From: Acidobacteriota bacterium
Lineage (GTDB): Bacteria; Acidobacteriota; Terriglobia; UBA7540
Reading direction: 5' to 3'
DNA length: 64,000 bases
Assembly (NCBI GenBank): GCA_004298155.1
Contig: SCRD01000006.1
Coordinates: 124,001-188,000 of the forward strand
The notes below the pieces were generated by a model. That model was not told the DNA's origin, ran no database searches, and saw only the letters and a program-made list of their open reading frames with translations. The translations under genes and the position numbers were made by a program. Shown in pieces: positions 12,195 through 16,041 of this stretch. Numbering within the stretch: the stretch's first letter is position 1; the number at the start of each line of letters is the position of its first letter.

Positions 12195-12710
12195 GTGGAT
12201 AATTTCAAGGCGCTGATCCGAGAGGTCCCGGATTTTCCCAAACCGGGAATTCTGTTTTACGACATCACAACCCTGCTGAAGGACCCGGTGGGTCTGCACG
12301 CGGCTGTAGATTCATTGGCTGATCATTACGTGGGCCAGGTAATTGACCGCGTGGTGGGAATTGAGGCGAGGGGCTTTATCTTTGCTCCTATGGTGGCCTA
12401 TCGGCTGAATGCCGGGTTCGTTCCCGTGCGCAAGCCGAAAAAGCTTCCCGCTGAAACGGCGCGGGTGGAATACAGCCTGGAATATGGAAAGGACACCCTG
12501 GAAGTCCACCGTGACGCCATCGGCAAAGATCAGCGGGTGCTGATCATCGACGACCTGCTGGCCACCGGCGGCACCGCTGCGGCAGTCGCCCAGCTTGTGG
12601 AATCACTGGGTGGCATTGTAGCGGGCCTGGGGTTTTTAATTGAGCTCGAATTCTTGAAGGGAAAAGAGAAGCTCACAAAATACGATTTGCATTCGGTGTT
12701 GAAGTATTAG
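12195..12710 (+). CDS. apt: Adenine phosphoribosyltransferase
   Basis: 171 residues, full length. It salvages adenine with PRPP to AMP. The N-terminal [20 protein letters not shown] and the PRPP loop [14 protein letters not shown] are both intact. The start is GTG 12195 with a strong AGGAGAGG SD (12183-12190). The last gene of the glpD-acyP-apt run, it converges on the UGA-containing redox gene. The 52-nt spacer has an inverted repeat (ACAGA ... TCTGT around CGCG / CGCG) that may act as a terminator. Confidence 0.96.
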
Positions 12711-12762: not shown

Positions 12763-13428
12763 TCATGCCTTGACGCCCTCGTCCGGCGACTGCAAGGCCG
12801 CCATGATGGTATCAAGAAAATAGTTTTCCGGCATGGAGCCTTCCAGCGCCTGCCCTTCGTTGATCACCGTCTTGGGGACAGCGTAGACGCTGTATTTTGA
12901 GACCAGATCGGGAAACTCGGTGGCCTCGATGCAGTCGGCTGTGATGTTCTCGCTTTCCATTGCAAACTGGTGAGCCAGGCGCACCGCCCGGGGACAGTGC
13001 GGTCACGTGGGGGTGACAAAAACCTCCAGATGGACGGGCTGGCTCAAGTGAGAAAGTTTTTCCTTGCTCTCCGCGCCCAGGCCCGAGTCGCCTTTTGAAA
13101 CGTCGAGGATGGCGTCAAGCACGGTTGAGAATTCATACCCGGCGGGCATGCCGTAATACCGGATGCCATAATCCTTCCCATTGCGGATCACCGTGGCGGG
13201 CGCCTTGTTTACTCCATATTCGGCAACTTTCTCCTTATCAAGGATAAAGTCGTAGACTTCGAGCGACAGCTTGTCGGACAACGCGGCAAGCTCCTCGAGG
13301 ACCTGGCGAGTTTCCTTCCCGTACTCCAGGTTCAGCTCCTGTGTAAAGTGAATGATTTTGACGGGAGCCGTCATCGCATCCAGCCGACGTCGGATTTCAA
13401 CCGCGTCTTCGTCACCGAGGATCCCCAT
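12763..13428 (-). CDS. Two-domain thioredoxin-fold oxidoreductase, candidate selenoprotein (in-frame UGA)
   Basis: 222 codons if the UGA at 13005-13003 is read through (221 residues, Sec 142). Two glutaredoxin/thioredoxin folds in tandem resemble the protein disulfide oxidoreductase family. The UGA falls exactly at the first Cys of the C-terminal CxxC: EVFVTPT-UGA-PHCPRAVRLAH. Family-like sequence continues in the same frame for 79 codons (AMES, EATEFPDL, VPKTVINE). The N-terminal site reads ELNLEYGKET, with no Cys, so the UGA-P-H-C site would be the only active site. The start ATG 13428 has a GAGGG SD about 7 nt upstream. No SD precedes the first possible restart (GTG after the UGA), arguing against two separate proteins. 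Alternatives are a nonsense mutation or a sequencing error at one base. No sel genes are in the window. Confidence 0.7.
12969..13001 (-). promoter_or_regulatory. Hairpin(s) just downstream of the UGA, possible bacterial SECIS
   Basis: Two mutually exclusive stem-loops lie right after the UGA. One spans 13001-12980: a CGCAC / GTGCG stem extended by wobble pairs, with a small C-rich loop about 10 nt from the UGA. The other spans 12985-12969: a GGTG / CACC stem with a 9-nt loop beginning 22 nt after the UGA and a G in its second position. The second has the spacing expected of bacterial SECIS elements. GC-rich coding sequence forms such hairpins by chance, so this is only supportive. Confidence 0.35.
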
Positions 13429-13581
13429 AACTATCCCTCATCTGTTCACTCGCCGCCATTGTTGCATCCCATGGCCACGGGCTTATATTTAATCAAAGGC
13501 GGACGATATCTAGATTCCGCCGCACCTTGAACCAACAACTATAGGATGCCACGCAGAAACCGAAGGATTCGTGAAAGCTCC

Positions 13582-16002
13582 TCAATTCCTCAATTCGACG
13601 ATGGTTGCCCCACCGCCCCCTTCTCTCTGGGTGGCAGGGTAAAACTTTTCCACATGCGGATGCGAGGCGAACATTTCGTGCAGGTTCTTGCGCAGGATTC
13701 CTTTTCCGAACCCGTGGATAACACGCAGCCGGGCGCGGCCGGCCGTATAAGCGCGGTCCAGAAATTCATCCACCCGATCCAGCGCTTCCTCTGCAGTATT
13801 GCCGATCACGTTGATTTCCTCCGGCACATCTGCTGGAGCAGCGTCAACCTTCATACTCAGGCGTCCGCGCGGTGCTGCAGAGGCTTCTGGAGGCGCTGAT
13901 TTCCGCGCCACAATCTGCACCTCATCCCTGGCGATCCGCAGCCGCAGGTTCCCCACCTGCACCTGGATGTGGTCATCGTCCACAATTTCCGTTACCGTGC
14001 CCGGGGTGGAAAGGTTTGGCACGCGCACCTGGTCGCCAACCGCAACCGGCCCTTCAGTCATGCTCTGGCGTTCCGGCGCCGGCTCGGACAAAACGTTCAG
14101 CACCTCAGCGTTCCATTCCTCGCGCGCTTCCTGCTTCAGCGCCAGCGTTTTACGCTCGATGCCTTTGGGCAACCGCGGCTTTTCAACCCGGGCGCGCAGG
14201 TCTGCCAGCGCGTTGTCCCAGCGCTTTTCCATTGCCTTCAGCGTTTCTTCCAGGCGCACATCGAGTTCTTTCAGCTTCGCGCGGCGCTCCTGCTCGGCTT
14301 TGGTTTCCAGCTCGACGGCCCGGGCCAGCAATTGTTTCTCCTCAGCCAGCAGGTTCGCCATCTGCGACTCCAGAAGCGCTCGTTGCTCGTGCAGCGCCTC
14401 GATAAGTGCTGAAGCGTCGGCTTCCTCCGCGCCGATGAGTTCGCGGGCCCTGGCCAGGATATCTTCTGGCAAACCCAGACGCGCGGCGATGTCCACGGCG
14501 CTCGATTTTCCGGGCAAACCCACCAGCAGCCGGTAGGTGGGCTCGAGGGTTTCTTCGTCAAATTCCATCGCGGCGTTTTCGGCTTCTGCGGTTTCGCTGC
14601 CGTAGGCTTTCAACCGCCCGTGGTGCGTGGTCACGAAGGTCAGAGCGCGCGACTTCCTGAAGCGATCAAGAATCGCAATCGCCAACGCGGCGCCTTCGCC
14701 CGGCTCGGTGCTCGATCCCAGTTCATCCAGCAGGACCAGGTCGCGCGGACCTACAACCTCAACCATGTGGCGAATGCTGGTGATGTGCGCCGAAAAGGTG
14801 CTGAGGTTCGCCTGGATGGATTGCTGGTCGCCAATGTCCGCCAGCACGCGATGGAACAAAGGAAGTTGCGCATCACTGGCGGCAACCGGCAGTCCGGCCT
14901 GTGCCATCAGGACAGCGATTCCCACGGTCTTCAGCGCCACCGTCTTGCCGCCGGCATTAGGCCCGCTGATTACCATCATAGTCTTGGGTTCCCGCAGGCG
15001 AATCCCAAGGGGGACGGATTTGCGCCCGGATTTGCGGAGAGATTTTTCGAGCAGCGGGTGTCGTATCTCCGTGAGCACAATTCCCTTCTCGCCGCCCAGT
15101 TGAGGAATGCAGCAATCATAGGCTCGCGCAAAAGCAGCTTTCGCAAAAACCATATCCAGCTCCGCAAGGACGGAGGCCGCGGTCACCAGGTCTGCCAGGC
15201 GCTCCCGGAGTTTTTCCGTGTACTCGCCCAGAATCCGCTGAGTTTCGGCATACTCGCGGTCTTCAAGCTCAACCAGTTCATTGTTCAGCGGCACGGTCTC
15301 CATCGGTTCAAGAAAGACGGTCGCTCCTGAAGAACTTGCGCCATGAATCACGCCCGGCACATGCCGCTTTTCTTCCGTGCGGATGGGGAGCACAAGCCGG
15401 TCGTTGCGCAGGGTAATTACGGCCTCCTGCAGCGCTTTATCGCGGCTGAGCCGACGCATGAGGCTTTCCAGCGTTTTCTGGATTTCATGCCGCATGCGTT
15501 CAACGGCGCGGCGCAGGCGACCAAGCTCGGGACTGGCGGAGGAATCGATGGAGCCGTCTGGATGGATCTTACCTTCGAGAATCGAAAGCAGCGAACGGAA
15601 GTCCGGCAGCGCGCCTGCCAGATCCGAAAGATACGGGAAAGAACCGGCGGCGAAATTCCTGCGCAGTTCCTGGCCTTTGCGCATCACCGCCAGGACCGCC
15701 AGAATTTCCCGTGCCGTGCAGGAAGCGCCCTCCACGCGAAGGCGATCAAGAATTGTGGCAGGGTCCTCCAGCCCTCCGAGTGACGGCCGCGCACCTTCGC
15801 GGAGAAAATTCCTGGCCTCGCGCACGCGTTCAAGCGCGACACTGATACTATCCAGATCATCGCCGGGAGCAAGCGCCGCAACTGCGTTGTGGCTGATGGG
15901 ACCGGAAAGAAATTCGCGCAGGACGTCCTTGACCGCATCAAACTCGAGAACGCGGCAGGAATAGCGATCGGGTGTGGCAGAAGAAAAGCCGGGGTCGTTC
16001 AT
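13582..16002 (-). CDS. mutS2: Endonuclease MutS2
   Basis: About 806 residues, normal for MutS2. It lacks the MutS mismatch-recognition domain and has a core/lever region (about 1-320), the MutS ATPase (Walker A GPNAGGKTVALKT, then a Walker B region DLVLLDELGSSTEPGEGAALA), a long coiled coil (about 510-630) and a C-terminal Smr domain with HGFGKGILR. MutS2 suppresses recombination and, in some bacteria, splits collided ribosomes. The Smr LDLRG motif is replaced by NVIGNT. The ATG 16002 is preferred; a TTG at 16017 is possible. The 153-nt gap upstream of the neighbouring redox gene has no gene. Confidence 0.95.
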   Translation of the reverse strand: MNDPGFSSATPDRYSCRVLEFDAVKDVLREFLSGPISHNAVAALAPGDDLDSISVALERVREARNFLREGARPSLGGLEDPATILDRLRVEGASCTAREILAVLAVMRKGQELRRNFAAGSFPYLSDLAGALPDFRSLLSILEGKIHPDGSIDSSASPELGRLRRAVERMRHEIQKTLESLMRRLSRDKALQEAVITLRNDRLVLPIRTEEKRHVPGVIHGASSSGATVFLEPMETVPLNNELVELEDREYAETQRILGEYTEKLRERLADLVTAASVLAELDMVFAKAAFARAYDCCIPQLGGEKGIVLTEIRHPLLEKSLRKSGRKSVPLGIRLREPKTMMVISGPNAGGKTVALKTVGIAVLMAQAGLPVAASDAQLPLFHRVLADIGDQQSIQANLSTFSAHITSIRHMVEVVGPRDLVLLDELGSSTEPGEGAALAIAILDRFRKSRALTFVTTHHGRLKAYGSETAEAENAAMEFDEETLEPTYRLLVGLPGKSSAVDIAARLGLPEDILARARELIGAEEADASALIEALHEQRALLESQMANLLAEEKQLLARAVELETKAEQERRAKLKELDVRLEETLKAMEKRWDNALADLRARVEKPRLPKGIERKTLALKQEAREEWNAEVLNVLSEPAPERQSMTEGPVAVGDQVRVPNLSTPGTVTEIVDDDHIQVQVGNLRLRIARDEVQIVARKSAPPEASAAPRGRLSMKVDAAPADVPEEINVIGNTAEEALDRVDEFLDRAYTAGRARLRVIHGFGKGILRKNLHEMFASHPHVEKFYPATQREGGGGATIVELRN

Positions 16003-16041
16003 GCCAGGAGACTGCAAACAACACTTTTCACACAGGAGCCG

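Follow-up and report, generated by a model that had tools for sequence, protein, structure and literature searches.

A predicted TIGR02187 selenoprotein with a single UxxC active site in Acidobacteriota

The window analyzed here, a stretch of 64,000 nucleotides of an Acidobacteriota genome (contig SCRD01000006.1, positions 124,001 to 188,000), contains on its minus strand a gene (13428..12763) that we predict, with a probability of about 95%, to encode a selenoprotein of the TIGR02187 family. This assignment agrees with the original prediction of a UxxC redox selenoprotein read by SelB, and draws on the alignment of the UGA with Cys, the conservation of the UGA, the sel genes of the same genome, a SECIS-like hairpin, and purifying selection. 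The features of the gene are as follows.

12763..13428, minus strand: predicted TIGR02187 selenoprotein coding sequence, 221 aa, Sec at residue 142, stop TGA at 12765-12763 (from the frame, the family profile, and relatives)
13003..13005, minus strand: UGA, putative Sec codon, opening the UPHC active site of the C-terminal fold (aligned with the Cys of CPYC in Cys homologs and in Pyrococcus PDO)
12994..12996, minus strand: codon (TGT) of the resolving Cys145 of the UPHC motif (from the sequence; invariant in the alignment)
12975..12991, minus strand: candidate bacterial SECIS hairpin, CCGGGCG-GUG-CGCCUGG, with GU at 12984-12983 (from folding, bSECIS rules, and covariation)
13318..13338, minus strand: ELNLEYG codons in place of the N-terminal CxxC, active site lost (from the alignment; AlphaFold places it in the loop that precedes helix 37-48)
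13435..13439, minus strand: possible ribosome-binding site, GAGGG, ahead of the ATG at 13428 (sequence only)

Reading frame, family, and fold

Starting from the ATG at 13428, the frame runs for 221 residues without a frameshift and is interrupted solely by the TGA at 13005-13003, which corresponds to residue 142 in the context VTPT-U-PHCPRAV; retranslation reproduced exactly the coordinates of the original prediction, with one TGA, no shift, and a normal stop at 12763. When the UGA is read as a residue, the product matches NCBIfam TIGR02187 (PDO_seleno_TRX) over residues 6-210, with 271.5 bits against a cut-off of 185, whereas the ordinary list of open reading frames ended the gene at 13003, after 141 aa. 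Pfam places Thioredoxin_3 at residues 133-208 and DUF7088 across the N-terminal fold. Among solved structures, the top matches are those of Pyrococcus protein disulfide oxidoreductase (PDO), 1j08 (E 1e-52) and 1a8l (E 1e-50), with homology over 212 residues, so that the PDO-like character initially recognized on both flanks of the UGA extends over the whole length, and Cys homologs carry Cys in the UGA column, which places the codon, as proposed, at the first Cys of the C-terminal CxxC. The AlphaFold model consists of two thioredoxin folds (mean pLDDT 93, pTM 0.90), with U142 in the loop leading into helix 145-158, the usual place of the attacking residue.

Full-length homology across two thioredoxin folds is shared with the PDOs of P. 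furiosus (1A8L), P. horikoshii (1J08), and A. aeolicus (2AYT). Each of the two folds of PDO has a CxxC (PMC7465337), whereas the Acidobacteriota protein has none in the N-terminal fold and UxxC in the C-terminal one. In one review, PDOs are called exclusive to thermophiles (PMC7465337), in contrast to several of the relatives considered here, which are metagenome-assembled genomes (MAGs) whose names point to soil, bog, or sediment samples.

The original prediction knew of no description of Sec in this two-domain architecture, but UxxC forms of TIGR02187 have been catalogued since 2006, and the Acidobacteriota gene is therefore a well-supported addition to a known family. The catalogues (PMC1794560, PMC9312934, PMC13188914), which also use the name "Grx-like domain protein," include a 2006 survey, in which a "homolog of AhpF, amino-terminal domain" was represented by two genes, from Carboxydothermus and Symbiobacterium, and Acidobacteria were assigned 4 selenoproteins of 3 families, as well as reviews from 2022 and 2026, in which the UxxC form of TIGR02187 appears among the predicted selenoprotein families (example ABB15282.1), graded in the latter as "predicted with high confidence." Compared by HMM and UxxC only, the window protein belongs to the same curated family and has the same motif as the 2006 examples, but comes from Acidobacteriota and has lost the N-terminal CxxC. 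A literature search, with most subscription journals outside its coverage, found neither a paper on the Acidobacteriota form nor a description of N-terminal CxxC loss in this clade. As far as could be looked, the spread in Acidobacteriota, the SECIS-like hairpin with its covariation, and the architecture with one active site are new.

Conservation of the UGA and selection downstream

A whole-genome search of the GTDB family and order of the window yielded 31 genomes with an ortholog spanning the UGA site, at 60-86% protein identity. TGA occupies the codon of residue 142 in 28 of these orthologs and TGC in the other 3, so that both further UGA-containing homologs and Cys homologs aligning through the UGA, the check proposed initially, were found. 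TGA is also present at this codon in eight more distant genomes within the class and in second copies in two genomes (L083 and L084). The relatives named in a public genome set are Acidobacteriota MAGs, some of them labelled subdivision or group 13. The TIGR02187 family is held by 72 of the 396 Acidobacteriota genomes drawn, 30 of them with an internal TGA. Thus, a selenoprotein reported from two genomes in 2006 is widespread in this phylum, where a standard open reading frame stops at residue 141. Two phylum searches, centered on G486 and G484, gave an identical genome pool and were counted as one sample.

The early end of the gene in the mechanical list of open reading frames, at 13003, would fit a truncated N-terminal domain of 141 aa followed by a decaying remnant, whether a pseudogene or a sequencing error. 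The same UGA is found in 28 genomes of many genera, however, the frame remains open downstream, and Cys145 of the motif is invariant across the alignment. Purifying selection persists past the UGA: for the pair L009/L010, dN is 0.097 and dS 0.649 (dN/dS about 0.15), and dN/dS stays low in other pairs too. Truncation is accordingly highly improbable, and pseudogene or sequencing error is rejected on conservation and selection; in place of the stops elsewhere or pseudogene decay that the original prediction had feared, the relatives have the UGA at the same codon and dN/dS below 1.

SECIS-like hairpin and Sec machinery

A SECIS had been assumed near the UGA, and a candidate was found in the hairpin CCGGGCGGUGCGCCUGG (12991-12975), which has a 7-bp stem, a GUG loop, and an energy of -10.5 kcal/mol, with 18 nt separating the UGA from the apical loop. 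These values fall within the bSECIS rules of PMC13188914, namely, a loop of 3-9 nt, a stem of 4-16 bp, G in the first two loop bases, a distance of 16-37 nt from the UGA, and MFE <= -7.5. At this hairpin, no more than 12 of the 28 UGA genes comply with all strict rules, the energy threshold being the usual point of failure, and the many relatives that miss -7.5 would go undetected under those rules. The 28 genes have a mean hairpin energy of -7.1 kcal/mol, whereas 500 permutations of synonymous codons gave -3.8 (sd 0.48) and never fell below -5.2. At four-fold codons, the third base is more conserved within the 13 codons following the UGA (0.70) than outside them (0.53), with p 0.02 on seven codons.

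The bases flanking the invariant loop GU are the wobble positions of Ala and Val codons, and in the 28 UGA genes they form C-G (22), G-C (3), G-U (2), or G-G (1). This covariation is significant by Fisher test when relatedness is ignored (p 6e-5), and the pair has the top mutual information among all column pairs. In a pair count over 18 chosen sequences, the covariation score is 0.217 against 0.138 in shuffled data (0/500), falling to 0.09 or less when the partner is shifted by one to three columns. The window itself is the G-G exception, in which the next pair outward, G-C, closes the GUG triloop. The E. coli-type hairpin spans nucleotides 15-31 from the U of the UGA, with GU at 23-24 (PMC8659212); the window hairpin occupies the same interval, but its GU is at 22-23 and, unlike that of E. 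coli fdhF, it is without the bulged U17.

The three TGC orthologs (L023, L033, and L035) have an intact frame throughout and are nested within the Sec clade. The hairpin is kept in L033 and broken in L023 and L035, as expected after a Sec-to-Cys change, although three cases are few. L023, with its degraded hairpin, groups closely with the Sec genes L025 and L034, and looks like a recent Sec-to-Cys change.

All four sel genes, which the original prediction had proposed to look for, are located in the same genome: selB (C1:328303; 368 bits vs a cut-off of 242 in a profile search), selA (C17:347388; 585 bits), selD (C17:121050), and a tRNA-Sec with anticodon TCA (UCA; C6:40381). Among the family and order genomes with the UGA gene, 24 of 28 have SelB above the cut-off; the other four (G006, G017, G026, and G038) gave partial matches, lower ones, or none at all, with genome completeness at 75% for G026 and 72% for G038. 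SelB is above the cut-off in 82 of the 101 genomes searched and hence common in the class, so that its presence alone is weakly informative, a matter of consistency rather than proof.

Reading of the UGA as Trp or another residue, through a code change or leaky read-through, would be compatible at the protein level with the continuing frame. Such a reading is nonetheless most unlikely, given that the UGA aligns with Cys, that the sel gene set is complete with a tRNA-Sec(UCA), that a SECIS-like hairpin is present, and that the terminal stop of the gene is itself TGA. We infer from the conserved sequence, structure, and gene content that SelB, Sec-tRNA(UCA), and the hairpin would decode the UGA as Sec.

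The selD gene of the same genome (L044:1276-2448, minus strand; G000:C17) also has an in-frame UGA near the N terminus (KAAG-U-AAKLSP), and its product is predicted to be a selenoprotein itself.

Single-site architecture and predicted function

The N-terminal CxxC, on which the original prediction was silent, is absent from all family and order orthologs in the alignment and kept in members from other families and phyla (ECETC, MCDTC, and DCPYC). On a tree of 154 rows, several of which are long branches of unsure placement, the N-site state switches 9 times or more and the Sec/Cys state 19 times or more; N-site loss is recurrent, having occurred about nine times. The Sec-rich clades without the N-site are that of the window, the GGSES and DPES groups, which have Sec only or mostly in the sample, and a distant group (L075, L201, L204, and L205); the N-site is also lost in the single Cys genes L132, L163, and L203. 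It is conceivable, if rather doubtful, that the N-site becomes dispensable once Sec occupies the C-terminal site and that seleno-PDOs have repeatedly become single-site, reductase-only proteins, with the clade of the window as one such lineage. A tie between N-site loss and Sec is unsupported by an independent-pairs test on the starred branches of the tree (0.2 pairs the same way, 0.1 opposite, 7.7 with no difference; p = 1), which is low in power because most N-site losses fall inside Sec clades. In the single-site form, nature provides a test of the purpose of the second active site of PDO and of whether Sec can offset its loss.

Other copies differ in this respect. In two genomes of the same GTDB family (G013 and G030), second TIGR02187 copies (L083 and L084) combine a kept N-terminal CxxC (ECDTC/ECQTC) with a C-terminal UGA. 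Up to two further TIGR02187-like copies per genome (L213-L219), aligned over the C-terminal half and with UGA in the C-terminal motif, occur in G495, G542, G581, and G670.

In S. solfataricus PDO, mutagenesis showed that the C-terminal site is fundamental for thiol transferase activity, whereas the isomerase needs both sites (PMC7465337), and electrons pass from NADPH through thioredoxin reductase and PDO to peroxiredoxins (PMC7465337, PMC7278568). With the N-terminal CxxC gone, thiol-reductase activity and little or no isomerase activity are predicted for the window protein, in which, of the two tandem thioredoxin folds, only the C-terminal one would be redox-active, with Sec142-Pro-His-Cys145 as its center. 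The Sec142 selenolate would attack the substrate disulfide, Cys145 would resolve the mixed selenosulfide, and, by analogy with archaeal PDO, thioredoxin reductase and NADPH would restore the enzyme, Sec serving as the more nucleophilic attacking residue in a TrxB-fed reductase. A gene for thioredoxin reductase TrxB is present in the same genome (C17:337585). We consider it reasonably probable that the protein acts as a general thiol reductase fed by NADPH and TrxB.

Of the two thioredoxin folds in the N-terminal domain of AhpF, one is active and the other inactive. The window protein resembles it in having one dead and one live fold, and AhpF profiles match it at 9e-21 and 2e-28, although it is free-standing, has no flavin reductase fusion, and would contain Sec. 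It is therefore possible, if somewhat improbable, that Sec is inserted but that the protein is dedicated to donating electrons to a single partner, in the manner of the AhpF domain and AhpC, or belongs to another pathway; no conserved neighbor points to such a partner. The genes flanking the selenoprotein gene are as follows.

13582..16017, minus strand: upstream gene, which we take to be MutS2-like, kept in the closest relatives
12195..12710, plus strand: downstream convergent gene, presumably adenine phosphoribosyltransferase-like (apt-like), kept in 10 of the 18 loci compared

Neither of these is a redox gene. Neighbors are only partly conserved around the loci compared, where a conserved redox neighbor was sought and none was found, and a redox operon was thus rejected. 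Because of this, we infer the partner and substrate of the general thiol reductase, candidate substrates being peroxiredoxins and other cytosolic disulfides. A promoter and terminator scan of the locus was empty, and the only Rfam match returned, to the CPEB3 ribozyme, was below threshold and is attributed to chance. Elsewhere, the gene L167:1489-3159 (minus strand) apparently encodes a flavoprotein resembling thioredoxin reductase (232 bits to TIGR01292) joined to a response-regulator receiver domain, and the overlapping gene that follows apparently codes for a histidine kinase that includes a cyclic-nucleotide-binding domain.
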